Virus record (IMG/VR): IMGVR_UViG_3300020436_000015
Coordinates: 1-55,142 of that record
Reading direction: 5' to 3' (one strand)
Length of the DNA: 55,142 nucleotides
Source of the DNA: a virus
Shown piece by piece: positions 11,411 to 53,800 of the stretch. The position numbers and the translations under genes are program-made. How positions within the stretch are numbered: the first letter of the stretch is position 1; each line of letters opens with the position of its first letter. Below the pieces are notes generated by a model. It worked only from the letters and a program-made list of their open reading frames with translations, ran no database searches and was not told the origin of the DNA.

Positions 11411-12925
11411 TTAATTCCTCACGTTGACCGCGAATCCAATGATTCTAAGAAGGCCATTGCCTTCTCTGGAGCGAAACCTGTATTGTGCCGCCTTGTAACG
11501 ATGGCTCCACTTTCGCTCGTACTGCCGTGATAGTGGCACATCTTCAAAGTAATTGTCGTCCTGATCGTCGTCCACTTCAAAGACTAAACTGCCAATTTTG
11601 TGGCCTCTGTCGTCTATTGCAACCATTTCGAGTATGCCTTTGCCCGTGGCTTGCACAGTTATGCTCTCTGTCTGCTTTGTGTCATACAGACTCCCGTGCC
11701 AAAGGAATGGAGTGAGCACGTCTATCTCTGGTGTAGATGCGCCGTCCTCAAACTCTTCGGGCAACAGCACTTCGTAGACACCGCCTGATGTCCCGAATGT
11801 CATTTTGCCAGCAAGGAACGAACCGCATCTTGCCTGCAAAAAGTCCGCCGTGCTGAATTTTGGCTGTGCCTGACCCCCTTCTGGGTTCATAGACAGGGTT
11901 AGTCTAGTGCAAAGCTGGTTCGTTTGAGGAAAGAAAAGATGGTACTGGGCATTGTCTTGGTCAAAGACAGCACTAATGTCCTGCTTGTTTTGCACGCTGT
12001 TGTATAGCTCTCGATACAGCAGGTCTACCTTGTCACTCAGTGAGTACGAGTAGACGAGAATACCATTCTCCTCAGACCGCTTGATGCTGTGTATTCCAGA
12101 TCGGCTCGCAAACAAAAGGTCTGTGCCAGCGTTTTGAATAGTGTTGTGAGAGAAAGTGCCGATGTTTATGTTGGCTGACTCGTCTATTGTCCAGAGCGTA
12201 AGGTCTGGGTCTATCTTGTAGATTACCGCCCTGTCATTAGTAAATACGACCAACCTATTCTGCTCAAAAGCACCAAGTCCCGTAACCACATCTGCACTTC
12301 TAAGAAGGCTCGCTATATCAAAAAACGAAGCGCGGAGAACATCTGCGCTTGTTTCGCTTTCGTCATCTGGAAATACGTCGTCTGAGTCAACTCTGCTGAA
12401 GTGAACCTCTGTAGGTTTTGATGGTATGCCAGCTACCGCAAGCCGTCTTTGTATGGAGACGCCGAATGCTGGGCGAAGTATGTTTAGTGCCGGAGACTGA
12501 TTCAAGGCAAAGCCGGAGCCGTCGTATCTGTAGGAAGACTCTCTGGGCGCAAAAAACATAACAGATTGGTCAAAGACAGCCGAAGACACGTTTGTTCCAA
12601 GCGGATATGCGTCCTTTAGGATTTGCCCGCCACCAGATTCAGAGACAAGATTTATGGAAGCACCCGTTTCTTCTGCGTAGACAATCTCAGAAGTGTTAAA
12701 AAAATTGATGTGTTTGACCACAAACTCGCCTGTTCGCTTTTTTGCACTTGCGTCACGCACGATCTGTCCGCGCCAATCGGCAGTGCAATTCTTCATGGAA
12801 GACAGGTGTTGGTCTTTGCCAGTGTCTAAGCTGGTAACGTCTCGGCTTGTGTCTAAGCCTTGGAAGTTCTCATAGGCGAATGTTTTTACCTTTACGCCAG
12901 TAAATGATTTTGTAGTGCTTGTCAT
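11411..12925 (-). CDS. Tail stabilisation / tubular protein (P22 gp10 or T7 gp12 type)
   Basis: This 504-residue protein is beta rich, with alternating hydrophobic strands and a repeated pattern of aromatic and charged turns. The N-terminus (FAYENFQGLDTSRDVTSLD) and length match the P22 gp10 stabilisation / T7 tail tubular protein B group, which forms the nozzle below the head-tail adaptor in short-tailed phages. Its start overlaps the stop of the adaptor gene by four bases (ATGA), as expected for neighbouring neck components. The assignment rests on position, length and fold character. Confidence 0.65.
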   Translation of the reverse strand: MTSTTKSFTGVKVKTFAYENFQGLDTSRDVTSLDTGKDQHLSSMKNCTADWRGQIVRDASAKKRTGEFVVKHINFFNTSEIVYAEETGASINLVSESGGGQILKDAYPLGTNVSSAVFDQSVMFFAPRESSYRYDGSGFALNQSPALNILRPAFGVSIQRRLAVAGIPSKPTEVHFSRVDSDDVFPDDESETSADVLRASFFDIASLLRSADVVTGLGAFEQNRLVVFTNDRAVIYKIDPDLTLWTIDESANINIGTFSHNTIQNAGTDLLFASRSGIHSIKRSEENGILVYSYSLSDKVDLLYRELYNSVQNKQDISAVFDQDNAQYHLFFPQTNQLCTRLTLSMNPEGGQAQPKFSTADFLQARCGSFLAGKMTFGTSGGVYEVLLPEEFEDGASTPEIDVLTPFLWHGSLYDTKQTESITVQATGKGILEMVAIDDRGHKIGSLVFEVDDDQDDNYFEDVPLSRQYERKWSHRYKAAQYRFRSREGNGLLRIIGFAVNVRN

Positions 12926-13830
12926 TTAGCATCCGTAACCAAGCCGTTGTAGTTGCTGGTTTTACTGCCGATAAAGTTTCTAGGGTTAGTTCCGTCATCA
13001 ACAATACGCATCTTGATATTCGTATTGCCGTTCAGAGACTCCCATAGCTTGCTGTTTAGAGTTCTAAAATAATTTGCTTGGTAAAACTGAGCCTTCTCCG
13101 ACATCTGTTGCATTGAGTAGTGGTACAAAAGACCGTTGACAATAATTATGTCCTCTATAGCCCTGCTGTCATTTTGACTGTCGTAGTAGTCAATCTCCAC
13201 AGTCAAGTCCCTGTAAGGGTGCATTCGGATGTCGTCTATGACCATGTTCGCAAACTCAATGAACATCAGCATGACATCTCCGTCTACAGTTCCGGGCGCG
13301 TAGTCTCCAAAGCGCCTGAGAGCCTGCATAGACAGCGTGCCTAGCGGAGAATACTTGTCTCTGATGTGCGGATTGGTGTCGCTAGATTCGGATGTTTTTC
13401 CAACATCCTCCTGCTTTGTCGCGTTCGCGTAAGTCCTGATTGGCTTTGTAACCCTGATGCTGTTTCCCATGCCATCGCCGTGTGCCGCGCAGTAATAGCT
13501 GAACGATCCGGGTATGGAAGAGGATGCGGGTATCTCAATAGTTGTTTGAGCGCCTGCTTGGCCAAGAGTGCCAGTGTTGGTTACGTTAGTGGTGTAAGCA
13601 ACCCCGCCTTGCTTGAAGGCTATCTGATGGCCTACGTTTGTAGAGTCGGACTGAACAAATGTATGTGTCTGCCCACGCTCTAGCTCAAGTACGGGTTTTG
13701 CAACGCCATCTATGTAGAAGACGTTAGCTCCATTATATGTAGCTACCGTGACAACAAAACTTGTTTTAGCAGTAGAACTACTTGAGGTGGTTCCCGTAGA
13801 ACTTGAACCCGAACCCGTGTGATAGGACAT
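12922..13830 (-). CDS. Head-tail adaptor with N-terminal cupredoxin-like domain
   Basis: The protein has 302 residues. Residues 1-22 are a Ser/Thr/Gly linker. Residues ~23-128 look like a plastocyanin/cupredoxin beta sandwich with all four type-1 copper ligands in order: His68 (GHQIAF), Cys114, His117 and Met121 (YYCAAHGDGM). Residues ~150-300 resemble the T7 gp11 / P22 gp4-like adaptor that sits under the portal (RRFGDYAPG, ANMVIDDIRMHPYRDL, LYHYSMQQMSEKAQFY). It lies between a small neck/head gene and the tail stabilisation gene. Copper binding is inferred from the ligands; the spacing Cys-x2-His-x3-Met lies between those of amicyanin and plastocyanin. An alternative is a cupredoxin fold used only for decoration. 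Confidence 0.7.
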   Translation of the reverse strand: MSYHTGSGSSSTGTTSSSSTAKTSFVVTVATYNGANVFYIDGVAKPVLELERGQTHTFVQSDSTNVGHQIAFKQGGVAYTTNVTNTGTLGQAGAQTTIEIPASSSIPGSFSYYCAAHGDGMGNSIRVTKPIRTYANATKQEDVGKTSESSDTNPHIRDKYSPLGTLSMQALRRFGDYAPGTVDGDVMLMFIEFANMVIDDIRMHPYRDLTVEIDYYDSQNDSRAIEDIIIVNGLLYHYSMQQMSEKAQFYQANYFRTLNSKLWESLNGNTNIKMRIVDDGTNPRNFIGSKTSNYNGLVTDAK

Positions 13831-14251: not shown

Positions 14252-15442
14252 TTAGGATCGGCCTGACCAGTTCTTGATGTAACTATGAACTTTGTCTTGG
14301 AGCAGTTCGAGACCACACTCACTCAGGTACTCATGTTTGATGGTGTCGGCATCAGGGGACTGACGATTCTCCAGCAGTTGAGTATCCCGACCTTCGAGGT
14401 AGCGATAAGACAGATATGGGAAGTCAACGACAACCATAGATGTCTTCATGTGCGCCAACTGACGGAACTGGGGATGCAAATGCACCATCAGGTCTCCGGC
14501 AAAGGTCTCGTATTGGGTAAGATTTACACCGTAAGTGCCTTCGATTGCTGTCGGACGCCAGCGGTTCTTACCGATTTGTTGCAGATGGTTAGCAACAGTT
14601 TCGCCAACGAAAGCGATCTTCTGCTTGGAACCAAACTTGAAGACGCTAGAGATGAGCAAGTCATCAAAGCCTTCTTCAGTCATGTTTCCAGCAGAAGCAC
14701 CACCGTAACTTGCGTAGTCAGTGGTGATGTCGGTTACGTTGGTCATGCTGTTGATAAGACCACCCGTGTAGCGGGTCGGAGCATTTGTTGAGCCGTTTGC
14801 TTCGTGCTTCTTACCGAAGAACATCGCTCGCTCAATGTCGCTCATGTGTAGCTTCAGCGCCTTCGTCATGGCTTCATCCATCTTGTCTCCAGTGCGAAGA
14901 TAGGTGGAACCAAGAGTGTTGGTCACTTGGAACGCAGTTCGGAAGATTTGCGTGTAGTTAGAAGCTACGGTTGCGTCGAAGGTGATAGCAGTAGGACTGC
15001 TCGCGCCTTCAGCCGCCGCGAAACCCGCTACGAACAGTTTTGCGCCACTGGCAATCTGGTGGGAAGTGCCACCAATGTTACGAGTTACAACCACGTTAGT
15101 TGCTGAATAATCAGCAGTTACGTGCATAACCTCGCCAGTAGTTTGGTTTACCAAGATTGCGCCACTGATCGCGTACTTGTTGTCGTCACCATTAGAAACG
15201 GGGACAGTCCCAGTTGTGGTGTCAGCAACAGCGGCACTCGTCGTTAAGACGCGCTCTGGCAGTTCGTCACGGAAGTTCTTGTACTCAGGGTCATCGGTAG
15301 ACTCTGAAGAACCCATTGAAAGAAGAGCGTTCAGCGGTGCATTGCCGTTAGGCTCAAGCAACGTGAAAAGCTCACGATAGTTCTTGGGGCGGAAGTCTGA
15401 GCTAAACTCACCTGTGCCCCTCATACCTTGAATAGCGGCCAT
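14252..15442 (-). CDS. Major capsid protein, SU10/DUF5309-like
   Basis: This 396-residue HK97-fold candidate resembles the phage SU10 major capsid protein group (DUF5309). Recognisable features are an N-terminal MRGTGEFSSDFRPKNYRELFTLLEPNG-type opening, an insertion of beta strands, FRTAFQVTNT, the spine-helix stretch DEAMTKALKLHMSDIERAMFFGK, and the C-terminal CGLELLQDKVHSYIKNW. It forms the icosahedral shell. An AAGGAG ribosome site lies six bases before the ATG. It has its own unit: a hairpin terminator lies upstream (after the scaffold gene) and another hairpin lies downstream, as expected for the most abundant virion product. Confidence 0.85.
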   Translation of the reverse strand: MAAIQGMRGTGEFSSDFRPKNYRELFTLLEPNGNAPLNALLSMGSSESTDDPEYKNFRDELPERVLTTSAAVADTTTGTVPVSNGDDNKYAISGAILVNQTTGEVMHVTADYSATNVVVTRNIGGTSHQIASGAKLFVAGFAAAEGASSPTAITFDATVASNYTQIFRTAFQVTNTLGSTYLRTGDKMDEAMTKALKLHMSDIERAMFFGKKHEANGSTNAPTRYTGGLINSMTNVTDITTDYASYGGASAGNMTEEGFDDLLISSVFKFGSKQKIAFVGETVANHLQQIGKNRWRPTAIEGTYGVNLTQYETFAGDLMVHLHPQFRQLAHMKTSMVVVDFPYLSYRYLEGRDTQLLENRQSPDADTIKHEYLSECGLELLQDKVHSYIKNWSGRS

Positions 15443-21755: not shown

Positions 21756-22844
21756 CTAGCGAATTGATCCGAAGTAGAGCATCTCGCCACTGCTCCTTAC
21801 AAGGTCTGTAGAAGTTCCTGCCGCTGGCGCAGTGTCTACACCTTGGACTATGCTACCACTCGTTAATGTAATGGTTATGCCATCTGCTACGTGCGCTGAT
21901 TGGTAGAAAACGTGGTTGTTCACGTTCTCTGTTACAGCAAACGTGCTAGATGTGCCAGCTATGCTGGCAACTTCTGTTACATGCAGAGTTTTAAAAGGGA
22001 AGACCTGTGCGCCATTCGCGGGGACGGTGTAATTGTTTTCAATCGCCTCATACTCGCCATCAACAACAAGCGGGTTGGCGGCGCTGTCTGCAACGCTGAA
22101 CTTGGACGTACCGCCTCCGCTAGAAACACTGCCAAACGAAAGTGTGCCTGCTCCGTCTGTCTTCAGAACCTTGCCTGCGCTGTCATCAGCGGTGGGCAGG
22201 GTAAAGGCAGAGACAAAAGATGCGAGGTTAGAGTCTAGGTTGGACAGGGCTGTTGCGGCATTTGCTAGGTCAGACAGGTTGTTGGCGGCAACCAATGCCC
22301 CGCTAGCGTCGAACACTGCGGTTTGCCAAGATGTTCCGTTATAGACTCGCAGGGCGTTGTCTGTAGTATTGAAGTACAGAGTGCCTGCCGCGAAAGAACC
22401 CGAAGGGTTCGAGGCAAACGGCCCCAAAAATATCTGAGTGAAGCTGTTTATCTGCGTTTGGGCGGCAGTTGCTACTGTTTCGCTAGCAGAGGCAGAAGTT
22501 GCAGACGCGGCGGCGGCTGTGGCTGAGTTAGCGGCGGCTGTGGCTGAATTGCTTGCTAGGTCTGCAATGTCACTTAGGTCGTTTGTGTTCCATTGAACCC
22601 AGCCCGTGTCATAGGAAGTGCCTTGTCCTATACGGTACTGGTAAATACCTGCGTTAGTTGAAAGCTCACGCAGTTGGAAAACAGTAGTTTTGTAGTTGCC
22701 GCTACTGTCGAACAGATCACCGATCATGTCACTGAGTTGGCGCGTGCCTTTCTCAGTGTTCTCCATGTACGTGTCTAGGTTGTGCTCTCCTGTTTTAGAG
22801 CTAACAAACCTAATCTGTTCACTGGCGGGTCTTGTTTCAGCCAT
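21756..22844 (-). CDS. Tail fibre with virion-anchoring N-terminus (362 aa)
   Basis: Residues ~1-95 resemble the anchor of other fibres (NTEKGTRQLSDMIGDLFDSS, GNYKTTVFQLRELSTNAGIY, RIGQGTSYDTGWVQWN), and the same kind of layout is seen in the 524-residue fibre at 9833-11407. An Ala/Ser/Thr-rich triple-helix-like segment (~100-135, SATAAANSATAAAASATSAS) follows, then a beta stalk with TLYFNTTDNALRVYNGTSW, then a small C-terminal domain. It is the first fibre gene after the portal. Confidence 0.7.
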   Translation of the reverse strand: MAETRPASEQIRFVSSKTGEHNLDTYMENTEKGTRQLSDMIGDLFDSSGNYKTTVFQLRELSTNAGIYQYRIGQGTSYDTGWVQWNTNDLSDIADLASNSATAAANSATAAAASATSASASETVATAAQTQINSFTQIFLGPFASNPSGSFAAGTLYFNTTDNALRVYNGTSWQTAVFDASGALVAANNLSDLANAATALSNLDSNLASFVSAFTLPTADDSAGKVLKTDGAGTLSFGSVSSGGGTSKFSVADSAANPLVVDGEYEAIENNYTVPANGAQVFPFKTLHVTEVASIAGTSSTFAVTENVNNHVFYQSAHVADGITITLTSGSIVQGVDTAPAAGTSTDLVRSSGEMLYFGSIR

Positions 22845-22885: not shown

Positions 22886-24868
22886 TTACTGGGGTCGTCC
22901 ACGCGCCTGACGAGCTTCAGAAAGAGGAATTAGATTCCCTCTGTCTACTTCTTGCTGGACTTGCTCATTAGGTTGTACGGATGCACCGCGCATCTTTTCC
23001 ATCATTGCTAGCTGTTGGCTCGGGGACGGGCCGTTAGCACGCATCTCTTCCTCAGAGACACGGAACCTGTCTAAGTCTGTAATACCCATGGCGCGTATGG
23101 CTTCTTCTGCAATCTGACCAGCGTTGTACTCCATGTTGAGTCCTGTCTGATTCATGATCTGAAGCATGTTCATCCACGTTTCTGCGTTACGGGTCGGCTC
23201 TAGCGGGAGAGTTCCGTCGATTACTAGGTAGTCGATTTCGCCCTGTAGGTCTTTGCTGACGTTGTAATCTAAGTATCCGTCGTCAACCATTTCGCTTAGC
23301 TGTGTAGGCATTTTGTCTCTGTCTATGCGGATAGAGCCGTTCATGTCGAGAGAGTCTTGTATGTTGGCAACCATCATCCTGACCATTGGGCGGATAGTGG
23401 TTGACGACATGATGCGTGCGATGACGCCTAGGCGCTGTGAGCCTAGCTGTGTAAGGCGCTGAATCTCAGTGGCCGTCCGTATGCCATCAGATGTTGGCAT
23501 GCCCTGTTGGGCGTCGGAGGCCGCTGAGACGCGCTGTTTGAGGCCGGACATTACTTCGATGTCGGTTAAATGGCCTCTAGTTACGTCAGGCACTTGTGCT
23601 ATAAACACGCCATCCCCCGGCTTGACGCCGGGAAGTGTCCTGACAATCCCCCAAGGATTCCTGTCTATCAGGTCTGGAATGCTGACCTGAGTTGGATCGG
23701 CAAAGATCAGGTTGTTCAGTGCCGCTGATATATTGTCGATACGGCTACGCATCAGGAATGTGGCGACATCGTGCATTGGCAGGATGAGGTCGTACAGTGA
23801 TTGGCCGTATGTCTTGTGGCTGTCTTGGTATAGACCACCAATTACGGCTGGGAACTGCCTGCCGTATGGGTTTAGCTGGAAGCGTATGACTACGTTCTCG
23901 TCTAGGATTGTGACGACTAGGAATATCTGGTCTATGGTCGGAATGCCGATCTCATGTCCAGAAAGTCGAACCCACGCCTCATCTACGACTCGCGCGTCAC
24001 CCAGAGTAAAGTAGCTGTGATCCATTCGCTCGCGCTGGAGGGGAGAAGCTGGGTCTATTGACAGTCCGCGACCTTCTTCTTTGTGCCACTTGTGGGCGTT
24101 CCATGCATTGCGAGGCGGACTCATCTTGTGGCGCAGAGCCTTATTGTCTCTAAGCTTGGGGTAGAGGCCGCTATACAGGAGCGAGTTGTAGGATTGATAG
24201 TTTGTGAAAACGATGTACTGCATGCTCTCCCAATCGCCCCATGTCACACGGGGGTCTGGGAAACAGCGGCGTGGATCGAAGTTCACAAGTTTGTTCTGGT
24301 TGCTTTGGTTGTCCCAAATTACTTTTGTTGGGGCAAAGCCGTAGCGGATGCTGTCCATAAGCATCTGGGCTAGTCGCGCCTCACCTGCGGTTCTGCGCAT
24401 CTGCTGGTGCAAGACACGCTCTAGGATCAGGGAGGCTTTGCGAGACTGTCGGTCTAGACCCTCAAGCTGGAACATCGGGTTCCTGCCGCCAAGCGCGGCC
24501 ATGAGGTAAGTCAGAACGGTGTCTGCTATGGCGCGGGTGTCGGCCATGACCGCTTTCTCACGGAAGTCTGTGGTGTCCGGTGGGACGTAGACATCGTGAG
24601 CGCGGTCGGCTTCTTTCCAGTGGTCGTAGCGTTTGCGAATCTTAAAGTAGGACATATCGACCATAGACTTAACGTAGTCTACGATCCGACGCTCTTCGTT
24701 CTCCGTGAGCATTCCAGATATGTCTTCGTAATTGATTAGCTGGTTCGCGTACCTAGACAGGTCTACGATCATCCCCTCGTTGGGTACAGATGACGCAACG
24801 TACTCCGCGCTGTTATACGAGGAGCCTGATGGGAGTGATGGTGTATTTTTTGGGCCTGAAGTCGCCAT
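22886..24868 (-). CDS. Portal (head-tail connector) protein
   Basis: The 660 residues are right for portals of short-tailed phages. It follows the large terminase gene. Visible features are an N-terminal helical wing (NEERRIVDYVKSMVDMSYFK), a conserved-looking core with VPPDTTDFREKAVMADTRAI, the stem region (YGQSLYDLILPMHDVATFLM), the crown-side helix TATEIQRLTQLGSQRLGVIA, and a Gln/Pro/Arg-rich C-terminus. It forms the dodecameric ring at the packaging vertex that receives the terminase. Confidence 0.8.
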   Translation of the reverse strand: MATSGPKNTPSLPSGSSYNSAEYVASSVPNEGMIVDLSRYANQLINYEDISGMLTENEERRIVDYVKSMVDMSYFKIRKRYDHWKEADRAHDVYVPPDTTDFREKAVMADTRAIADTVLTYLMAALGGRNPMFQLEGLDRQSRKASLILERVLHQQMRRTAGEARLAQMLMDSIRYGFAPTKVIWDNQSNQNKLVNFDPRRCFPDPRVTWGDWESMQYIVFTNYQSYNSLLYSGLYPKLRDNKALRHKMSPPRNAWNAHKWHKEEGRGLSIDPASPLQRERMDHSYFTLGDARVVDEAWVRLSGHEIGIPTIDQIFLVVTILDENVVIRFQLNPYGRQFPAVIGGLYQDSHKTYGQSLYDLILPMHDVATFLMRSRIDNISAALNNLIFADPTQVSIPDLIDRNPWGIVRTLPGVKPGDGVFIAQVPDVTRGHLTDIEVMSGLKQRVSAASDAQQGMPTSDGIRTATEIQRLTQLGSQRLGVIARIMSSTTIRPMVRMMVANIQDSLDMNGSIRIDRDKMPTQLSEMVDDGYLDYNVSKDLQGEIDYLVIDGTLPLEPTRNAETWMNMLQIMNQTGLNMEYNAGQIAEEAIRAMGITDLDRFRVSEEEMRANGPSPSQQLAMMEKMRGASVQPNEQVQQEVDRGNLIPLSEARQARGRPQ

Positions 24869-24905: not shown

Positions 24906-26525
24906 TTACATCCCCCAGCCTCTCCAACTGATCCGCCCTTTCTTTACTGTCTGAAAAAGGGACTTTCCAAAGTCCCTGTCGGGATTTTGGTTGATGGACT
25001 GTGTTGGGTCTGAGTGTAGGTCGTAGGCTTCTGGAGAAACTGATGTTCGAGATAATACATCAACGGCTATGGTCATGGCGTCCACTTGGTCGTCATGGTT
25101 GCCGTTTGGGAAAGACACGCACTCGTCAGCGAAATCATCCAGCCAGACAGAGGACTCTGGCAGAAAGACACGCCCGCCTTCGATGAGTGGCAGTATGGCA
25201 TTTACCCTAGCAACTTTGTCTGTGACAACCTTGTAGGGGATGACGCTGACACCGGACTCGCGCTTGAGTTCTTGAATGAGAGATTGGCCGGAGGCTTTAT
25301 CCTCGATGTAGATTGCGCGTAGACCTCTGCCTCGCCATGCGTTGTTCAGTTGGATCATGCGCTGTTTGAGTTCTGGGAAGTCGTACTTGCCGCGCACGAT
25401 GTCCACTATGTAGATGTCGCCCGTCTTGTCCATACCTGCTACGACAAAGACAGAGTAGTCTGCTGACTCCGACTTCTTGAATGCTGTGTCAGCCGCTATG
25501 ACCAGAGTTGTGAAAGATTCTGGCTTGAGATCGTCTGGATAACTGCGCCACCAATCTGTGCGAATTAGGTTACCGCCTTGAATGTAGGGCTGTTGCTGGT
25601 ACAAGCTGGCAAACTCTCGCGGGTTCAGACGCTCTCTTCGCTTCAAGTCTTCCAGCGGGAATCGTTCCGGCCAGAGTGGTTGTTCGTTTTCTTCTGCCAC
25701 CTCTCTTTTTGCTGGAGACAAGGAGCGGTATTCGTCTGGAGACACGTAGCGTGGGTCATCTTCTGGAAGCATGCGTCGGCTTATTTTCCTGCCGTTTACT
25801 TTCTTGATGGCTGGGAAGTTGATGTGTTTCCAACGTCCTTCTTTCCAATCCTCGCTATCCATGAGTCGGCCAGCTAGGTCGTCTGGATGCCAGCGGGTCA
25901 GGATGACTATTTGTTTTGGCTGGTCGCCCTTGTTACTGGGCTGGAGTCGAGTGGCCAGTGCAGAAGTGTAGTAGTTCCACGTCTTGTTGCGCTGGGTCAG
26001 GGACTCCGCGTCCTCTCTTGACTTGATTGGATCGTCCACAAGCAGGAGGTTGGCTGGTCGGCCAGAGGTTGTACCGCCAACACCGACTGCGAAATAGGCT
26101 CCACCCGACTCTGTGCGCCACACATCTGCGGCGCGTGACTCTTGGGACAGGTTGAAGTCGGGGAATGCTTGGTTGATTAGGTTCTGCTCTACGACCGTGC
26201 GTACTTGTCTGCCAAAGTCTGTGGCTAGCTGGGCGTTATAGGAGCAGGACATGATGTACCGTTGTGGATCACGGGCCATGAAGTAGCTGGGGAACAAGAC
26301 CGTGCCGAATGTGGACTTAGCATGTCGTGGCGGCATTGTGACAAGGAGGTTATTAACACCAAGAGTGCCTTTCTCTAGGCTGTCTAACGCTTCTATTAGC
26401 TCAAGCTGGAAGTCTGCCAGCGTCCACTCTGGATACATCAGCTTTACAAAGCCAAGATACCCTTCGTTTGCGTCACGTATGCGGAGAAGGTACTGAGCTA
26501 CCTGCTTTTGGGAAACTTTGCTCAC
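24906..26525 (-). CDS. terL: Terminase large subunit
   Basis: This 539-residue DNA-packaging motor has an N-terminal ATPase with Walker A at ~64-72 (MPPRHAKST), Walker B at ~160-166 (LLLVDDP) and the coupling region after it. The C-terminal RNase H-like nuclease shows IAADTAF at ~348 and HDDQVDA near ~475, which supply the metal-binding Asp residues. It translocates DNA into the procapsid through the portal and cuts it. The start is GTG at 26525, overlapping the upstream stop (GTGA). TerL of this kind is used by both headful and site-specific packagers, so the packaging type is not settled. Confidence 0.93.
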   Translation of the reverse strand: MSKVSQKQVAQYLLRIRDANEGYLGFVKLMYPEWTLADFQLELIEALDSLEKGTLGVNNLLVTMPPRHAKSTFGTVLFPSYFMARDPQRYIMSCSYNAQLATDFGRQVRTVVEQNLINQAFPDFNLSQESRAADVWRTESGGAYFAVGVGGTTSGRPANLLLVDDPIKSREDAESLTQRNKTWNYYTSALATRLQPSNKGDQPKQIVILTRWHPDDLAGRLMDSEDWKEGRWKHINFPAIKKVNGRKISRRMLPEDDPRYVSPDEYRSLSPAKREVAEENEQPLWPERFPLEDLKRRERLNPREFASLYQQQPYIQGGNLIRTDWWRSYPDDLKPESFTTLVIAADTAFKKSESADYSVFVVAGMDKTGDIYIVDIVRGKYDFPELKQRMIQLNNAWRGRGLRAIYIEDKASGQSLIQELKRESGVSVIPYKVVTDKVARVNAILPLIEGGRVFLPESSVWLDDFADECVSFPNGNHDDQVDAMTIAVDVLSRTSVSPEAYDLHSDPTQSINQNPDRDFGKSLFQTVKKGRISWRGWGM

Positions 26526-29588: not shown

Positions 29589-31619
29589 ATGTCACACACT
29601 CTGGATCAACTGCTCGTGGAAGCATTCAACGAGCAGAAGAAGGTGTCCGCACTCAAGGACATCTTCGCAGAGGTAAATGCAAGCCGCAGGCGTAGCAAGC
29701 TGAAGGCACACGTTGCCGACACGCTGATGCGAGCCAGCGATCCCGCGATAGCCAACGAGGTTATCGCAATCACAGGCCAAGACACGGTAAACAAAAGCAT
29801 CGCAATGATGCCCAAAGACATACTCGTGCCGCTTGTCCTGTACGCACCAACGGCAGGCATGTACTACGCCGATGTCGCGCTCAGCGACACAATCCCCCGT
29901 GCTCGTTATGTCGGCAAGGACGGCACGCTCAAGGGCCATGGCAAGCTGTTACAGGCAAACCAATACGGCTACTTGCCCGAGACCGCAAACGAGATCGAGG
30001 ATGCCATCATCGCCAAGTTACAGGCGACAACCACACCCACCAACACACCCACCAACACACCCACCACTAAGGAGACGCCTATGTCTACTGTTTACACAGC
30101 CGCCGCTTGGCTCGACACCGTGTTCTGCATCGTATACGAACGTGAGGAATGGCTACGCGGTGAAGGATATGGAGACATCATCGGAGTGCCAGAGCTACGT
30201 TCTGTCCACAAGGCAAAAGAGTTGCTCGTCCACTTCCTGACAACAAACACCCCGAATGACGCGCTGTTCAAGGCCAACGTCGATCAGCTTGACTCCGCGA
30301 TCGGCCAGATCGACCTCGACCTGTGGTCTCCGACAGAAGCGGATGAACTTACACACAGGGACTTCGACCACGAGTTGCATGACACACTAATACGTCACCT
30401 CATGGACAACACCCCCGCGTCTGGCGCTAACCCACCCCCGATCTTCAAGATGCCAGATGACGCCATGACGCAGGCCATCAATTCCTTGCTTGCCTCGTCC
30501 GGCACTCCCCACACGCTTCAAGGCATACGCAAGGAGCTTGTTGCCGCTATCGGTCGTGTGCAGGAGCTTGAGTCCGCGCCACCCGCTGTCTCTGCGATCA
30601 ACGTGCAGGTTGGCGGAGACACCAAGATGTCTTCGGCTACCGCCGAGTTGCCCGACGGCGAGTTCAAGGTCGAGCCTGTCTCCAAGCGGTTCGACATACC
30701 TTCCCATGTATCCGCGTTCGACTTCAGCGTGCCTACCTTCACATGGGAATCACCCCACCCTCACGTACCAGAAATCAACCCCGACTACATCTTTGACCCG
30801 AGCAACCTGTTGCGCGTGCTGTACTCGCTTGTCTGCAACACACGGTGCTGGCTCCACGGCCACACGGGTACAGGCAAGTCCACCATGATCGAGCAAGTCT
30901 GCGCACGTCTTGGCTACCCGCTTCGTCGTGTGAACTTCGACTCTGAGATCACACGTCTCGACCTGATCGGTCGTGACGTACTGACACAGGAGAACGGAAC
31001 CACTGTCTCCAGATTCGAGGACGGCATCCTGCCCCAAGCCATGCAGGAGCCATGCGTGTTGCTGTGTGACGAGATGGACTTTGTGCGTCCTGACGTTGCC
31101 TACGTGGCCCAGCGTGTGCTGGAGGCTGACGGTGGCCTGATGCTCACGGAGGATGCTGGCCGCGTGGTCAACCCGCACGCCTTGTTCCGCATCTTTGCGA
31201 CAGCCAACACGAAGGGTCAGGGCGACGAGTTCGGCATGTACTCCGGTGCTCGCGTTCAGTCGATGGCGTTCCTTGAGCGATTCACCTCATGGATCAAGGT
31301 CGATTACATGCCCAGCGAGGATCGCGCCAAGCTCATGCTAGCCAAGGTGGGTGGTGGCCTGACAGACACCGTGCTCAATACGATCAACCAGTATGTCACT
31401 GAGCACATCGAGGCGTTCACTGGTTCGCAGGTCATGCAACCCATCAGTCCGCGTGGTTATCTGGAGCTTGCCTCCGCGACATCGTTCCTGCGCGGCTCGT
31501 ACCAGAGCGAAGAACAAGCCTTACGTGAGGCTTTCGGCATGGTCATCCTTGACCGCGCCACAGAGCAAGACAAAGTTGTACTCGAAGGCATCGCCCAGCG
31601 TGTCTTTGGCAACGCCTAA
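29589..31619 (+). CDS. cobS: CobS/MoxR-like AAA+ ATPase
   Basis: The protein has 676 residues. The AAA+ module occupies ~395-670, with Walker A at ~424-431 (GHTGTGKS) and Walker B near ~489-497 (VLLCDEMDFV). It also has the CobS-type signature between them (RVNFDSEITRLDLIGRD) and a sensor segment (RIFATANTKGQG). CobS is the ATPase partner of CobT in aerobic cobaltochelatase, and MoxR-type ATPases act with VWA proteins to remodel partners. The next gene is such a partner. Residues 1-160 are a separate helical domain joined by a Thr-Pro-Asn repeat; an in-frame ATG at 30081 with AAGGAG eight bases before it could give a 512-residue short form. No CobN is present, so true cobalt chelation is uncertain. 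Confidence 0.8.
   Translation: MSHTLDQLLVEAFNEQKKVSALKDIFAEVNASRRRSKLKAHVADTLMRASDPAIANEVIAITGQDTVNKSIAMMPKDILVPLVLYAPTAGMYYADVALSDTIPRARYVGKDGTLKGHGKLLQANQYGYLPETANEIEDAIIAKLQATTTPTNTPTNTPTTKETPMSTVYTAAAWLDTVFCIVYEREEWLRGEGYGDIIGVPELRSVHKAKELLVHFLTTNTPNDALFKANVDQLDSAIGQIDLDLWSPTEADELTHRDFDHELHDTLIRHLMDNTPASGANPPPIFKMPDDAMTQAINSLLASSGTPHTLQGIRKELVAAIGRVQELESAPPAVSAINVQVGGDTKMSSATAELPDGEFKVEPVSKRFDIPSHVSAFDFSVPTFTWESPHPHVPEINPDYIFDPSNLLRVLYSLVCNTRCWLHGHTGTGKSTMIEQVCARLGYPLRRVNFDSEITRLDLIGRDVLTQENGTTVSRFEDGILPQAMQEPCVLLCDEMDFVRPDVAYVAQRVLEADGGLMLTEDAGRVVNPHALFRIFATANTKGQGDEFGMYSGARVQSMAFLERFTSWIKVDYMPSEDRAKLMLAKVGGGLTDTVLNTINQYVTEHIEAFTGSQVMQPISPRGYLELASATSFLRGSYQSEEQALREAFGMVILDRATEQDKVVLEGIAQRVFGNA
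30031..30069 (+). repeat. Short tandem repeat coding Thr-Pro-Thr-Asn
   Basis: About three copies of a 12-base unit (ACACCCACCAAC) encode TPTNTPTNTPTT inside the cobS-like gene. The repeat forms a flexible linker between the N-terminal domain and the part that could start at the internal ATG 30081. Confidence 0.85.
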
Positions 31620-31645
31620 CACACACACAACAAGAGGAATCACCT

Positions 31646-33673
31646 ATGAACATACGCAAGTATACGACCGGCCAAGCCGTCAAGGAGATCAAAGGCACGA
31701 GTGCTGTCTTTGGCCGCAAGCATGACATCAGTGTTGAGTTCGGCGGAGAGATCGCCTACACGGATGGAACGAAAATCCACTATCCCGCAGTGCCAGAGGG
31801 GACTACGTTCACCCCCAAGGAAATGGCGGTACTGCGCGGCTTCACAGACCACGAGACAGGTCACATCGTCTACTCAGACTTTTCAATCATCCCCACCATC
31901 AAGCGGTACATGACCCGCAACAACAAGCCCATCACCATGCAAGTGACCAACGCGCTCGAAGATATGCGCATCGAGCATAGGCGCATGCAGGACTACGCGG
32001 GGGCCAGAGCAAACCTATCTGCTTTGGGTGACCAAACGAATGGCCAGTTCCTTGAGGCCATGAAGGAGCGCGATATGTCTGCCGAGTGCTACAACCCGCT
32101 GTGGGTTGGGCCTGTCGCGGCCACATGGATTGGGCGTGAGTCGTATGCCCACTCGTCTACTGAGTGCATCAGCCTGTTGGACGATGTTCTGCGTGACACC
32201 ATCAAGCCTTACATACCACGCGCTCTCCAAGCGGACTCTACGAAAGCTGTGTTCGAGTTGGCCAAGGAGCTTGAGGACAAGCTCATCAAGCTGTACGAGG
32301 AGCGCAAAGCAGAGGAGCCAGAGCCACCGAAGCCGCCCAAGGGAGACGACGAGGACGAAGACGGTGACGGAGAGGGCCAAGGGCCAGAGCATGAGCGGGA
32401 GGACGAGCCAGAAGGCGAGAGCGAAGGCGATGGCAACTGCGATGGCGAGAGTGAAGACACAGAAGAGGGGGACGACGGCGATGAGGAGGATTCGAGTCAA
32501 GGCGACGGCGAAGATGAGGGCGAAGACGACGGAGATGGGGAGGATTCTGAAGACGGCGACGGCACGGGTGAAGGCGAAGACGGACGTGAGGACGGCGGCT
32601 CCGACGAGGATCGAGAGGTCGAGTCGGGTCGCCCCCAGTGGACAGAGGAAGCCTACAGCCCAGAGGTCAACAACTCTGTCACAACGCTGATACAGAAAGA
32701 CGAGAATGAGGTGGCGGGTCACGGACGAACCTACAAGCTCGGGCAGAACCTTGAGGAGAAGGTCTACCACTGGGATGACACGAACAGATGGATATACGAG
32801 AAGTACTGGCCAGCGCATCCTCATGTGTATCAATCGTGTATCACGAAGACAGCAGGCACAACGGCTGTCATACGCCAGCGTCTCAGTCGGGCAATCATGG
32901 CGCAAGACAGGCGTGGCTATGAGACAGGGCTTGAGCAGGGCAGGCTTGATACACGCAAGTTGCCATCCGTCATGTCCGGCAGAACCAACGTGTTCAAGCG
33001 CGTAGACAACAGACACGATGTGAACACCAGCGTGATGTTGCTTGTGGATATGTCCGGCTCCATGGGCGGACGCAAGATTGAGTTGGCACAGCAGTGCGTC
33101 ATCTCGATACTCGAATCGCTTGAGCCAACCGGAGTCGAGACAGCGGTGATGGGCTTCACTACTGGTATGCGCACCTATCAGTATGCGAGAGGCGAGAAGA
33201 CACGCGCCGTGATCGAACAGAAGGAAAGCATCCTGTGCGAGAACACAGACCTGCTTGTCTTCAAGCGTTTCACTGACCGCCTTGCTCGTACTCGCAACAG
33301 CGTTGCGGCCATGGAGGAGATCGTTACCAACTGGGGCGGTCACAACAATGACAACCACGCGCTCAATGTTGCGGGTGACATGCTGTTGCCGCGCCCGACC
33401 AACCGCAAAATACTCATCACTCTGTCTGATGGCTACGCCAATGCCAAAGGCGTCGATTGGTATGTGTTGCGTAACGCATGCCACGACACTGTTGGCGTGC
33501 TGGAGTCCTCTGGCATAGAGACAGTGGGCATCGGCATCAAAGACGATGCAGTGAGTTACATCTATCCCAACTACGTTGTCGTGCGCCAACTGAGTGATCT
33601 TGCAGGCGAGGCCATGGACAAGCTGTCTCAACTGTTGCTGGGCTTGAAGATCACAGACATCAAGGTTGCGTGA
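31646..33673 (+). CDS. cobT: CobT-like VWA protein with zincin-like N-terminus
   Basis: The protein has 675 residues. Residues ~60-110 carry HETGH (69-73) and NALEDMRIE (102-110), the pattern of the metallopeptidase-like domain found in CobT/VWA relatives. Residues ~225-330 are an Asp/Glu/Gly-rich tract. The VWA domain (~460-650) has a complete MIDAS: DMSGS at 468-472, a later Thr region and LSDGYANA. CobT binds CobS and, in cobaltochelatase, links it to CobN. Here only S and T occur. The pair starts 27 bases apart in one operon under an operator-like site. A role in metal insertion or protein remodelling is inferred. An overlapping frame on the other strand across the acidic region is a shadow of biased codons. 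Confidence 0.8.
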   Translation: MNIRKYTTGQAVKEIKGTSAVFGRKHDISVEFGGEIAYTDGTKIHYPAVPEGTTFTPKEMAVLRGFTDHETGHIVYSDFSIIPTIKRYMTRNNKPITMQVTNALEDMRIEHRRMQDYAGARANLSALGDQTNGQFLEAMKERDMSAECYNPLWVGPVAATWIGRESYAHSSTECISLLDDVLRDTIKPYIPRALQADSTKAVFELAKELEDKLIKLYEERKAEEPEPPKPPKGDDEDEDGDGEGQGPEHEREDEPEGESEGDGNCDGESEDTEEGDDGDEEDSSQGDGEDEGEDDGDGEDSEDGDGTGEGEDGREDGGSDEDREVESGRPQWTEEAYSPEVNNSVTTLIQKDENEVAGHGRTYKLGQNLEEKVYHWDDTNRWIYEKYWPAHPHVYQSCITKTAGTTAVIRQRLSRAIMAQDRRGYETGLEQGRLDTRKLPSVMSGRTNVFKRVDNRHDVNTSVMLLVDMSGSMGGRKIELAQQCVISILESLEPTGVETAVMGFTTGMRTYQYARGEKTRAVIEQKESILCENTDLLVFKRFTDRLARTRNSVAAMEEIVTNWGGHNNDNHALNVAGDMLLPRPTNRKILITLSDGYANAKGVDWYVLRNACHDTVGVLESSGIETVGIGIKDDAVSYIYPNYVVVRQLSDLAGEAMDKLSQLLLGLKITDIKVA

Positions 33674-47852: not shown

Positions 47853-50800
47853 TTAAAAATCGCTACCAAAGTCTGAGGAAAATGCACCCGAAGAGAATGC
47901 TTGTGAGCCGCCGCCTCTCGTGGCATCGCCCATCAGATCAGCCGCGCCTTCTCGGAAAGCCCTGACTTGTCCAGCCACGGGTACTCTCATAGACAGCAAT
48001 CTAGCGGCTTGTCTTTCGTCTCCAGTTGGTTCCCCCGGTTCTTTAACAATCGCGTCACCAAAGCCTCTGCCCATTCTGTACACGTCAACACCCAAGCCCA
48101 CGGTTGGGCCAAGTAGTCTGCTTGCAAACGCCATCTCACCATAAGCTCCGTCATCAGCAGAAGCCGCCGCTTGGTATGCCAAGTCAGCAAACAGGCCGAG
48201 ACCGCCAAGCTGGACAAGACCTTCCCAATAAAGGGCCAGTGCCGCATCCGTGTCTTGGTGTATGTTTGGCGTAATGCCAAGGGTTTTTTCTAGGCTTCTT
48301 TCTCGAAGGGCGGCAGACTTTTCATCATCTCCACCCCTAAACTGCGCGAAGTCTTTTGCGGCTAGTGTAGCCGCACCCATTCCTACCCCAGCGGTGCTGA
48401 GAGCAAGGAGCGGAGTTATGTTTCCTTGTGCTCCTTCTTTGATTACGTCCAGAGTCAGCCTGCCCATCATCAACGGGAATGTCTTTAGCTGAAAAAGAAT
48501 CTGGCCAGAAGGTGTGTGCGCCCACATGGGTATGTCATCCGCATTAGGAGCGAACACCGTGTCGTTCACAAACTTGTTTAGAGCTACCCTTAATACCCTG
48601 TCTTCGCCAAGGTCTACGTCCCCAAGGTTTTCATTAAACCTAGAGCCTCCGGGCAAGAAGTCTTCGAGACCGTATCTGGCCATCAGCCTGTGGGCTGTCC
48701 TGTACCTGACACCCTGTCTTTGGACGGGTAGGGATGCGTCGTAGTGTCTTCTCAGCTTTATTTGCTGTGTCTTGAAAGCCTCAAGACCAACACCAGTTGC
48801 CAAGAGGCGCATGGTGTCTGTCCAAGGAGTAAGCATAGTCGCGTTAAAGAATGCATCAGATGCCTTGTTATGCACCTGACCATACATGTGAATCATTCTG
48901 TTGTGAGCAATGCTTTCTACACTAGCACCGATATTGAATATCTCGCGTCGATAGTCCTTGTCGTTTGTCGCAAAGTTCTTCAATGCCCGCAGGAAAGCGG
49001 GCATGTCTCCAGTTCTAACCAAGGGCAACACAAAGTCCGACAGAGAAGTCAGCGTTGTAAAGCCAAGAAGAGTTACGTTGTTGAATGTTCTAACTGCTTG
49101 AGAAGCCTGACGCCCAAGGTTTGTAGTGCCAATAGGCGGCTTCTTCATTGCAACATTCATTGCGTTTTCGAGGAATGTCATGTCGTCGTGTGAGAACTCG
49201 ACTTTGTTTCCTCTGAAATCTTCAAGAGCGCCGATTATTGCATCAACCCTGCGTTGATAAGTTGGGTTCGGCATCTGTCCGTAGCTCGGTGGGGCTATGT
49301 CTTCCAGCATTTTTCTAGCTGGGACAGAACCCTTAGACAAGAACGTAGACAGGAGGTTGTCTGCAAAAGCCGCCGCATCTCCCGGTCGGTTTGCAAATGG
49401 CATTCCGATTGTCTCTTTGAAGTCGATGCTTTCTACAAAACCTGTCTGGTTGTTGTATCCCTGTCTTGCGGTAGTGAACTCTTTGTTCTTAGACAGAAGC
49501 TCGGCTATGCCTTGAACGCCACCATTACGCACCACCATGTAGTCGTAGTAACCGTGGGTGTTGACACCCAGCTTTTCCATGAAAGCCAAGCGTCTGCTAC
49601 TGCCCTCAAAGTATTTCGTTAGCAAGAACTCAAGGTCTCCCTCTAAGAACTCTTCCATTCTGGAGATTGACTCTGGATACTTCTCAAGCTCTATCATCCT
49701 GCTGTAATCAAGAGCGTCAGATGTTGGATTCCTTGACCCGCCTCCGCCGGGAATAAATGTTCCTTGGTTTGACTGATCGCTAAGCGTGCCGAACATATTC
49801 TCAGCAAACTCTCTTGCCGCTTGTTCGTCGGCAAGCTCTCCGCGAGCAGTATGCTCAACCTTGTAGTAGTGAATCATGGCATCCAGAAAGCGTTCTCTGT
49901 TTCTGGATATAGATTCTGCGTTCCAAACCTGCGGAAGATAGTTTTTTCTGCGGCCAACATTTACGCCAGCTTCAATAAGCTCTTCTCTTTCCGCGTCAAA
50001 TGCCCTTCTAATCTGACCATATATCCCTTTTTCTTGGGTAGATAGAGTCTTGAAGAATCGGGAGTTCTCTCCATACCTTAGCGCCCTGACAAGTTTTTCG
50101 TGAGACTTGGGCTGTCCGCCAATGGCGTCCATGCTTACCCTTCTTGCCCACCTCTTTCCCTTGCCTTGTGCATCTGGCAAGCGATTGAGTGAGTGCATGA
50201 GAGGAAAATACTTTTTGGCAAAACGCTGACTAATGTCTGGGTAGACATCTCTGTACCAAGAGCCAAGCCACTTCAGCCCCATCTTGTTCATGCGCTCAGA
50301 AGATCGACCGATAAATTTAACCGGAGAGAAACTGCCTAGCTCTGCAATTTCCTCGTCGTTAAGGTTTCTCTTTCTAGCAAGAGTCTGAACAACTTGAGCC
50401 ATCTCGTTAGAGCCAGCAACTTCTATGGCTTCAGCAAAGGAACCGACATCTACATCGCCAATGTCTTTTATCTTTCCTTCTGAGGCTAGGCCAGCAATGT
50501 GGCCAGCAACACCGCGAGGCAGTGGCGCATCGCCCCTGCCGAACAGCCTGCTCTCATCAATGTCAAACTCCGTTGAGTTCGTGTGCTTGAACTTTGTGTT
50601 TGTCTTTTGCCCGAAGATCGCTTCTGGAGAGTCAAAGATAACCAGAGCAAGATGGTCTACATTTCTAGCAGAGACAGGAATTATTTGGCCTGACGGGCTT
50701 CTAAACTCGTTTACTCCCTCATGCGGAACGCTGTTGGAGTGGACATATATTAGCGAGTCGTAGCCAGCTTCTTTCAGCATGATGTTGAACTTGTCAGCCC

Positions 50801-53800
50801 GCATGCTGTGAGTTCCTTGGAACAAAGACAGTGCTTCGTCATAGAACTGCTCTGCTGAGAAGCTGTCTCCCTTTGAGCTTAACTTGCTTAGGAGATTACT
50901 TATCTGACGATCTGATATTTCCTCGCTGTTCTCAAGACGAACCAGCATATCTGCAAAAAGCCCGCTGTCCTCTCCCAATCTATGCATGGATTCTGGAGTG
51001 AAGTTGGCAACTTTCTGGGCCGCTGGGTATACGGGTATGACCATTGGATCAACAACGATGTCAAACTCAGCAAGGTTTTCTTCTAGCTCTTTTACCCTAT
51101 CCGCCCTGTAGGCAATGATCTGTCCAAAGTCTTCTAGTATGTCGTCTCTTGCGGCAAGAACTTGTTCGTAAGTCCTGTAAGGGTTTGATGGCATCAAACC
51201 CGTCATATCTCCGCCGCCTTCTCCTGCCGAAAACGCATAACCGTAGTAGCGGTCTAGCTGGCCTTCTCTGTATGCACCTTCAAAATCAACCAGAAGATTA
51301 GAGTAGACATTCCTGTCTATGGCGAGACCTCTCTGTAGCTCAGAAAGGTAATCTGCTGTCTCCGTCAGTCCGTCTTTTAGCTCTGGAGGATACTCGTCGC
51401 CCGGAAGACGCTGGATCATATTTCTATAGCCATCGCGGGTTGGTCTCAGAGCATAGACATCATGGGCCGCTGTAGCGGAGAAAGAGAAGTAGTTTCCAGC
51501 GCCATGATTGCCCTGCCTGCTGGGCTGAAGCTGTACGTCTGGATTGTCCAGATGATTTAGGCGCTTGCCGCTCGGCGTAGCATGGAAGACAACCACAGGC
51601 TCCCTAAAGTTTTTCAAATACTTATTTGGTATCTGAGTGGCAAAGCTACCTTGATACTCTCTTATGTTTGCCTGTGCTGTTTGACTACGCGCTCTGAAGG
51701 TGTCTCTGACAAAATTCTGCGCGCTGGTTGCGTTGTATATTCCAGCACCGGCTCTTTGCATCGGAGGATATGCCTTCGGAGAAAGCGCGCCATCTAGCAT
51801 GTTTCCGTACAGGAAAATTCTTCTGAACTGTTGCTTGATGTCGTCTCTACCAACCAAGCCATTCACGAGGTAGGCAACGTACTCAACAATTCTGTCTAAG
51901 GCTCTTTCGATAGTACCTTTGAACTGGATTGCGCCGATGTCTCCTGTAGCAACAGCTTGGTATATGTCGCCTTTTGCTACACGTTCTGCCATGTAAAGGG
52001 TTAGCTGTTCAGACATGTATTCTGAGGCCAGCAAGTCCTCTAACGGTCGCTCCCTAGTGCCATACTTCTGGGCGTAGGAAGCAAACAATCTGTCTTTTTC
52101 GGAGTCAGGCAATGCAAAGTATGCGTTCTTAATTGCAAACTGTTCGTCTGCGCTAAGAACATCGCTACGCATCACCGCTTCAGCAACGCTTTTTACAACC
52201 TCAAATGGAGACACGTTGCCTTTGTTTAGACCAATAGCGACCTGCCTCATATCTGTTCTGAACTTTTTAAACTCTGGAGACCTATAGTCTGCGAATACAG
52301 TCGCTCCAGACTCAGAGCTTGGCATACCAGACAGACGAGCAACGGTATCTGCGTCCACCACGTTCAGCTTTCCGTCCAAGAACCTGTTGGTCTTGCCCAT
52401 GAGGTTAAGCATTCGATACGCCAGAGTTCTAGCTCCGTACTCTATCTCCGGCTCCCTGTGCGTAATGTAAGACAGAAGGTTTTTGATTGATGCTCTGGAA
52501 TTTGCAGGTATGCCACGAGCAGAAGACACGCCCGTTGAGTCTGCGGCTTCTTTTACGATCTCCAGCTTGGAATAAAAGACAGGGGTGATCTGAACTTTTT
52601 TGTAATCTTCCTTGGAGTCAGCGCCTTTCTTGAGAGCTTTGTTGGCCCTACGCCTTCTGACCTCAAAAGATATTTCGTCCGCTACCTTCGAGTCTCCCCG
52701 ACCAAGAGCATCCATAAGCTCGTCCAGAAGCTCTGGCTCGTACATGTCCTTGTATTTTTTGGCCACGGGAACCTTCTTGAGTATTGGCCCAGTTTTTTCT
52801 CTGCGCACAATCTCATCAGCAAGCTGATCGCCGTAGTCTGTACCACGATGCTCTAGGAACTTTCTTCTAAGCTCGTCGTCTTTCATAGACTTAGAGCTAT
52901 CTGCGGTCTGCTTGTCTACCTTTGTCTTTTTCTTTTCTGCGGCAGGCTTTTTCTTCTGCTTGGCGTCATTCTTCGCCATCGCAGTTACAGCAGAAGATTC
53001 TCTTTCCCTCTTCTTTTTACTGCCACTGTCGGTTGGCTTGCCTCGTTTCCACTTCGGAGTGTGTCCCGGCATGATGCTACCGTCTTCTACCTTGTAGTAG
53101 GCGGCGGCTAGCGAGTCTTCTACTCTCTGGAAGATACTCCTGATTGCGGTTCGTCCGCCTGCCGGATCAAAGGTTTTGCCACCTTCTATTATCTTTCCGT
53201 CTGACGCTCTTTCGGCCAGAGCGGGGAAGAAGACATCCCCGTATCCATCAAGGTAAAGGGCTTTTATCTTGTCTGCCTGATCTTGTATGTCCCCAATAGA
53301 CATATCCACAAGGTCTTCGTAGCCTAGCTCGTTTCTGGCCGCATCATCTCCGAGAGAGTCGTAGTCGTAGTTTTTGCCTCCACGTATCTCGTCTATATTG
53401 TCTACACGATTATGGATGGCAGTCCATAGCGCAGGGTTTCTCTTGATCGGCTCAAGACTGCCTGTTCTGTATGGGCCTTTGCTGTTCTTGTATCTCTGAG
53501 CTATAGACAGCATGAACATTTGCATTTGGTCTGCGGCATTTATTATGCCGTCAGCACTGTCTCTGGTTATGGCGTCGTCCATGTCCGCCATAAGCTCTCG
53601 CATCTGTCTTACCCTGCCGTGCCATATTTTTCCGGCCTCAGTTTGGGGTGGGCCTGTCATGCCTTTTGCTCTAGCCGACTCAACCTTATCTGGCAAAGCC
53701 TTGGCAAAAAGTCTCTCAAGGTCTGGGTCTATCTGGGCGCCAAAGGCATAGCGTTCAAAAACATTTTTGATGTAGGACGCCATCCTTCTCCAGAAAGATT

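Follow-up and report, generated by a model that had tools for sequence, protein, structure and literature searches.

The window analyzed here is the whole stretch of DNA, a virus record of 55,142 bases. On its minus strand, at positions 12922-13830, lies an intact gene of 302 amino acids that runs from ATG to stop, has a Shine-Dalgarno-like AAAGGA shortly upstream of the ATG, and is syntenic with gp43 of Roseobacter phage CRP-810. Its product consists of a predicted copper-binding domain of the cupredoxin type joined to a head-tail adaptor. The features of this gene and of its surroundings, all on the minus strand, are as follows.

12922..13830, minus strand: cupredoxin-adaptor fusion gene, 302 amino acids (open reading frame, synteny with CRP-810 gp43, AAAGGA)
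13762..13830, minus strand: N-terminal leader, residues 1-23, Ser/Thr/Gly-rich (MSYHTGSGSSSTGTTSSSSTAKT; from the sequence)
13444..13761, minus strand: predicted cupredoxin domain, residues 24-129 (AF2, Foldseek/VIA, hhalign, profile match)
13627..13629, minus strand: His68, predicted copper ligand 1 (46/46 aligned copies)
13489..13491, minus strand: Cys114, predicted copper ligand 2, the only Cys of the domain (46/46 aligned copies)
13480..13482, minus strand: His117, predicted copper ligand 3 (46/46 aligned copies)
13468..13470, minus strand: Met121, predicted axial ligand, C-x2-H-x3-M spacing (46/46 aligned copies)
13381..13443, minus strand: predicted flexible linker joining both domains, residues 130-150 (pLDDT below 50 in the adaptor model)
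12925..13380, minus strand: predicted head-tail adaptor of the P22 gp4/T7 gp11 type, residues 151-302 (66% identity to CRP-810 gp43; VIA Z 9-12)
11411..12925, minus strand: adjoining gene, homolog of a tail hub or "stabilization protein" (65% identical to CRP-810 gp42)
14252..15442, minus strand: major capsid protein of the SU10 type (PF17236, E 2e-37; 79% identical to CRP-810)
21756..22844, minus strand: tail-fiber homolog without a cupredoxin; its homologs in the sibling records L372-L377 have one (profile search)
22886..24868, minus strand: portal protein (83% identical to CRP-810; PHROG portal match)
24906..26525, minus strand: terminase large subunit (79% identical to CRP-810; PHROG)

The core genes of the window are homologous to those of CRP-810 and stand in the same order, with identities of 79% for TerL, 83% for the portal, 79% for the major capsid protein, 66% for the adaptor, 65% for the tail hub, and 61% for the next tail gene. 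By these shared core genes and synteny, the window is a relative of CRP-810, a phage of the Roseobacter CHUG group and the founding member of a proposed family of marine phages that also takes in 251 uncultured relatives (PMC11288001). As reported for CRP-810-type phages (PMC11288001), the window has cobS and cobT: a cobS-like and a cobT-like gene lie side by side (29589-33673, plus strand). Near the end of the record, a 2412 amino acid open frame (47853-55091, minus strand) shares 34% identity over 1551 amino acids with the large CRP-810 protein gp35. In contrast to the window protein, its positional counterpart CRP-810 gp43 has only 153 amino acids, matches residues 149-299 alone, and lacks the N-terminal domain; no cupredoxin was found anywhere in CRP-810.

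A 120-residue stretch with the cupredoxin domain (window 13426-13785) was modeled by AF2 from 46 aligned sequences, giving a pLDDT of 92.1 and a pTM of 0.84. The modeled fold is a Greek-key beta-sandwich of the cupredoxin type. Its top PDB matches in Foldseek are the cupredoxin domain of CuNiR (2dv6, E 4.5e-5), rusticyanin, and laccases, and VIA aligns it with residues 24-139 of 2dv6 at Z 9.8 over 106 residues (rmsd 3.2). The first His lies just ahead of strand 55-59, the Cys ends strand 94-99, and the second His and the Met occupy the turn and the strand start that follow the Cys strand, in agreement with a type-1 site. An initial annotation made from the sequence had named these residues as H68, C114, H117, and M121, which is where they stand. 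Whether the four might lie far apart in the fold, a finding that by that annotation would refute the copper site, was judged from this topology and from the alignment of profiles. It had also assigned the domain to the N-terminal 105 residues or so; the domain is indeed N-terminal, while the copper domain extends over residues 24-129 rather than 1-105.

Sequence libraries alone recognize this domain poorly. The Pfam model Copper-bind (PF00127) scores 19.1 bits for the domain alone and 16.5 bits for the whole protein, below its gathering cut-off of 21.2 bits, and the plastocyanin equivalog TIGR02656 scores 15.1 bits, under a curated cut-off of 87.85. For this reason we used hhalign to set the profile of the phage module against 64 domains of the plastocyanin/azurin type, taken from genomes of cyanobacteria and archaea. 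The probabilities range from 90 to 94%, with E-values from 2e-6 to 3e-8, and all four ligand columns are paired. Sixty column permutations reach at most 5.6% probability, and the adaptor profile reaches 0.1%. The window domain itself is matched by the domain profile at E 1e-39, in a profile that includes the window copy. By sequence, no solved structure contains this module family. The cupredoxin call of the initial annotation, for which structure prediction had been proposed as a check, is thus borne out by a confident model (pLDDT 92, pTM 0.84), by cupredoxins as the top PDB matches, and by a profile link to plastocyanin/azurin-type domains.

The window copy shares its fold, its His-Cys-His-Met set, and the positions of the ligands with cellular type-1 copper proteins such as plastocyanin, pseudoazurin, amicyanin, rusticyanin, and CuNiR (2dv6). 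It differs from them in being fused to a virion adaptor, in falling below the Pfam cut-off, in having no visible signal peptide (the sequence of the leader, residues 1-23, contains no visible hydrophobic signal), and in its C-x2-H-x3-M loop, which occurs in one of the 64 cellular domains sampled. Three other identities were considered and rejected. A chance motif in an unrelated beta-sandwich is ruled out by the fold search, the permutation-controlled profile comparison, and the invariance of the ligands. A PDB sequence search lists several nanobodies (E 0.1-0.8) through a YYCAA motif; an immunoglobulin-like domain is ruled out, as cupredoxins lead the structure search. An auxiliary metabolic plastocyanin is ruled out by the fusion to a structural gene, the lack of a visible signal peptide, and the failure to match the plastocyanin model.

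How well is the putative copper site conserved? We aligned 46 diverse copies of the module, less than 75% identical to one another. Only seven columns are invariant (F, H, G, C, H, M, G), and four of them are the ligands; the chance of finding all four ligands among the invariant columns is about 8e-6, if columns are taken as interchangeable. The complete type-1 ligand set seen in the initial annotation aligns with the cellular ligand columns and is found in 46 of 46 copies, so that a loss of the ligands in homologs, which would have spoken against the proposal, did not occur. In a broader set of 184 distinct domains, 180 keep C-x2-H-x2/3-M (95 as C-x2-H-x2-M and 85 as C-x2-H-x3-M), three lack C-x2-H, and 180 have exactly one cysteine. 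All four ligands are also kept in each of the 76 distinct domains listed from a scan that was not seeded on the Cys-His-Met loop; one of its two search patterns included the first His. The second large scan of viral contigs, being seeded in part on the Cys-His motif, gives no independent evidence for ligand conservation. Judged from these sequences, the pattern does not look like that of a dead or purely decorative metal site.

Degenerate copies that lack the ligands are few; they turn up in virion proteins of S-H9-2, S-H9-1, Syn1, and S-CREM2 (gp130) and suggest that the fold can serve without metal. The large virion proteins of S-H9-2, S-H9-1, and Syn1 (L064, L066, L068) each have one ligand-bearing and one ligand-less copy. 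The gp130 protein of S-CREM2 (L380, record 98589-103511) has a cupredoxin-like copy without the Cys and His ligands, and this protein has been detected in virions by mass spectrometry (PMC10665884). We looked in S-CREM2 for a ligand-bearing copy proven by mass spectrometry and found only the ligand-less one.

The C-terminal half was modeled separately from the cupredoxin domain (residues 129-302, 27 aligned sequences; pLDDT 71, pTM 0.61). The predicted fold is the helical bundle of a head-tail adaptor. Foldseek ranks Sf6 gp7 and P22 gp4 first in the PDB, and in VIA-align the first 29 ranks of the PDB all belong to head-tail adaptors or neck proteins of phages, with Z from 12.2 to 5.6, ahead of the first unrelated chain at Z 4.5. 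The matches include Pa223, KHP30, cyanophage A4, P22, Sf6, SU10, HRP29, and T7 gp11, the last at a Z of about 9. The gene also lies between those for the major capsid protein and the tail hub, as do the genes of known head-tail adaptors. Calling this half "T7 gp11-like", as the initial annotation did, was right in kind, with P22 gp4, SU10, and A4 at least as close, and the proposed fusion holds in that a single 302 amino acid gene has both halves matched by fold. The start of most known adaptors falls near residue 30-33 of our model of this half, so that everything upstream, including the cupredoxin, is an added N-terminal part. This additional cupredoxin distinguishes the window adaptor from those of P22 (gp4), Sf6 (gp7), SU10, and T7 (gp11), with which it shares the adaptor fold and the gene position between capsid and tail hub.

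We then ask whether related phages have the same fusion, a search that the initial annotation had suggested. None of 69 distinct adaptor relatives carries a cupredoxin. In fifteen relatives, fragments among them, neither profile finds a cupredoxin in any part of the record, and seven of 20 further sibling records carry one in a place other than the adaptor. The six sibling copies that were read (L372-L377) all lie in the homolog of window gene 21756-22844, a tail fiber, and the window's own fiber gene has no cupredoxin by profile search. The fusion to an adaptor rests on one metagenomic record and, as far as these sequences go, is known only here; it is the position on the adaptor that appears unique, and the domain itself is common.

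The N-termini of the adaptor homologs are variable, with nothing, a piece of 53-57 amino acids, or a piece of 84 amino acids ahead of the adaptor. Such different pieces suggest that domains are exchanged at the N-terminus of the adaptor. The 53-57 amino acid piece (L013, L014, L020, L021, L026, L027, L030, L032-L036, L351, L365) has a conserved motif, DGxxYTGDTHTMxxGxxMTGAxHTxxS; the 84 amino acid piece is found in L043-L047.

Outside this family the module is widespread. A majority-consensus domain probe matches 333 of the 50,697 phage records searched, all of them, to judge by name, Synechococcus, Prochlorococcus, Pelagibacter, Methylophilales, or other marine or cyanophage records. In two viral-contig scans, at least 550 and at least 588 stretches were confirmed among the 600 listed in each. 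In 84,980 prokaryote genomes there are seven confirmed loci, all from marine organisms by title, and plasmids gave no match to the module. It may be N-terminal, internal, or C-terminal in proteins of 220 to 2,145 amino acids, and the flanking sequences form 45 clusters. The carriers are named tail fiber, baseplate wedge, baseplate wedge tail fiber connector, or virion structural protein: in cyanophages, pelagiphages, and methylophages the module sits on proteins of the fiber and the baseplate, small virion proteins carry it as well, and BFVD matches of the domain model are likewise among tail fibers and baseplate-fiber connectors. Examples are the P-SSM2 tail fiber, the S-TIM5 virion structural protein, and the Mosig and Melnitz tail fibers, which are about 27-62% identical and belong to the same domain family with the same ligands; the window copy matches the profile with all four. 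They differ from the window copy in not being placed on a head-tail adaptor. In the phage records examined the module is not annotated as a cupredoxin, and our literature search, which took in few subscription journals, found no report of virion or phage cupredoxins. As for the surprise of the initial annotation at a metal domain in a virion, the literature found bears it out, but the domain itself is common in marine phages.

Our tree of 85 domains places the window copy with L048 and L050, small virion proteins from other phages (support 98/94), and apart from the sibling fiber copies; the tree has few columns and its bootstraps are unsettled. On that tree, the module would have reached the adaptor from other phages. 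A move within the genome from the tail fiber is not supported, in view of this placement and of the window fiber without a module.

What could such a module do on a virion? It is found on a fiber in one phage, on the neck ring in a sibling, and on baseplate connectors elsewhere, and is most simply seen as an outward-facing tail module. The head-tail adaptor of the window phage would have gained it from a pool common to the virion proteins of marine phages. Known adaptors of the P22 gp4/T7 gp11 fold are 12-fold rings below the portal. The adaptor of a T7-like cyanophage is a 12-mer with a fiber dock (PMC10575957), from which one would expect some twelve flexibly tethered modules around the neck near the fiber roots, in the zone of fiber attachment. 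The N-terminus would be exposed there; the two domains were modeled separately. Each module would hold a complete predicted type-1 site (His-Cys-His-Met), with copper as the probable metal. Copper is scarce in the cytoplasm, so loading after lysis is likely: the protein would fold in the nearly copper-free host cytoplasm with its site empty and preformed, and acquire its copper later, in the periplasm or, after lysis, in seawater. In our reading, the displayed module, once loaded with copper, would help the virion to touch the host envelope and would serve as an accessory domain for adhesion or receptor contact; the fiber-borne sibling copies would do the same job. Copper-dependent host contact is our leading reading; taken as a whole, with a copper-binding module displayed on the tail exterior, metallated after lysis, and used at the host surface, we give it an about even chance of being right.

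The main rival is a metal-stabilized display domain, the marine phages' counterpart of the Ig-like domains of other virions, in which copper or another metal would only hold together a small beta-sandwich, binding specificity would reside in the surface loops, and copper chemistry would be irrelevant. The module's positions on fibers, baseplates, and small virion proteins resemble those of Ig-like display domains, it has no disulfides (one Cys in 180/184 copies), and some copies persist without ligands. However, stability alone would allow more replacement or loss of ligands than the near-absolute conservation found, and we regard this explanation as a serious possibility that is probably wrong.

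The copper might also act as a lure. By analogy with the iron Trojan or Ferrojan horse hypothesis, copper-loaded virions would engage outer-membrane receptors for copper uptake, or would join in marine copper ligation. All annotated phage matches are cyanophages or belong to other marine groups, and there is a precedent in the iron-binding HxH sites of phage tail fibers, described for T4 gp37 and alterophage R22Y with a proposed role in metal uptake or host contact (PMC11705849). Those sites resemble ours in placing a metal in a tail part, and differ in fold, metal, and ligands; the cupredoxin module, moreover, is mobile between tail proteins. Against such a lure, which we think rather unlikely, there is no link to a receptor, and the carriers infect very different hosts. 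Copper delivery is also not what type-1 sites, with their tight binding of the metal, typically do.

Cupredoxins are electron carriers, and with the full ligand set retained the module could cycle between Cu(II) and Cu(I) with reductants of the host surface or of seawater, or consume reactive oxygen at the particle surface. We consider this redox or protective role improbable, because the module is isolated on a tether, with no partner protein, no second copper center, and no sign of turnover. Finally, the proposal of the initial annotation that the copper site acts as a stabilizer of the neck, or as a periplasm sensor that triggers the release of DNA, takes up the module's seat on the adaptor of the window phage and has very little in its favor otherwise: the necks of 69 distinct adaptor relatives do without the module, seven of 20 sibling records carry it elsewhere (the fiber, in the six examined), unrelated phages have it on fibers and baseplates, the tree would derive it from unrelated virion proteins, and its absence from all other adaptors sampled disfavors gating or sensing and leaves any neck-specific role unlikely.

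Does copper-dependent host contact extend to the ocean at large? Many marine virus particles may carry copper. More tentatively, and with some doubt, one could imagine that marine tailed phages share a mobile, copper-loaded module of the tail exterior, that a large share of ocean virions are in this sense copper proteins, and that copper-dependent host contact, or copper-receptor mimicry, is a general strategy of attachment, the window phage using its neck ring instead of the fiber. Should the sites contain copper, the virions of many marine phages, cyanophages and pelagiphages among them, would carry the metal, which would bear on host attachment and on marine trace-metal chemistry in parallel to the iron-in-tails proposal. 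As the ligand set is invariant, the copper claim is directly testable on isolates already cultured. The adaptor fusion is also a natural example of a foreign domain placed on the neck ring of a phage.

Some further occurrences of the domain are of interest. Tandem modules are found within one protein in L111 (5590-6888) and in L234 (2758-3876). The Neomarinimicrobiota genome of L234 (G021) has seven module matches, some of them in frames of 1129, 1383, and 5267 amino acids, which are possibly cell-surface proteins or prophage genes. The BFVD matches of the phage cupredoxin model also include "Beta-sandwich" proteins from Pithovirus LCPAC304 and Marseillevirus LCMAC201.
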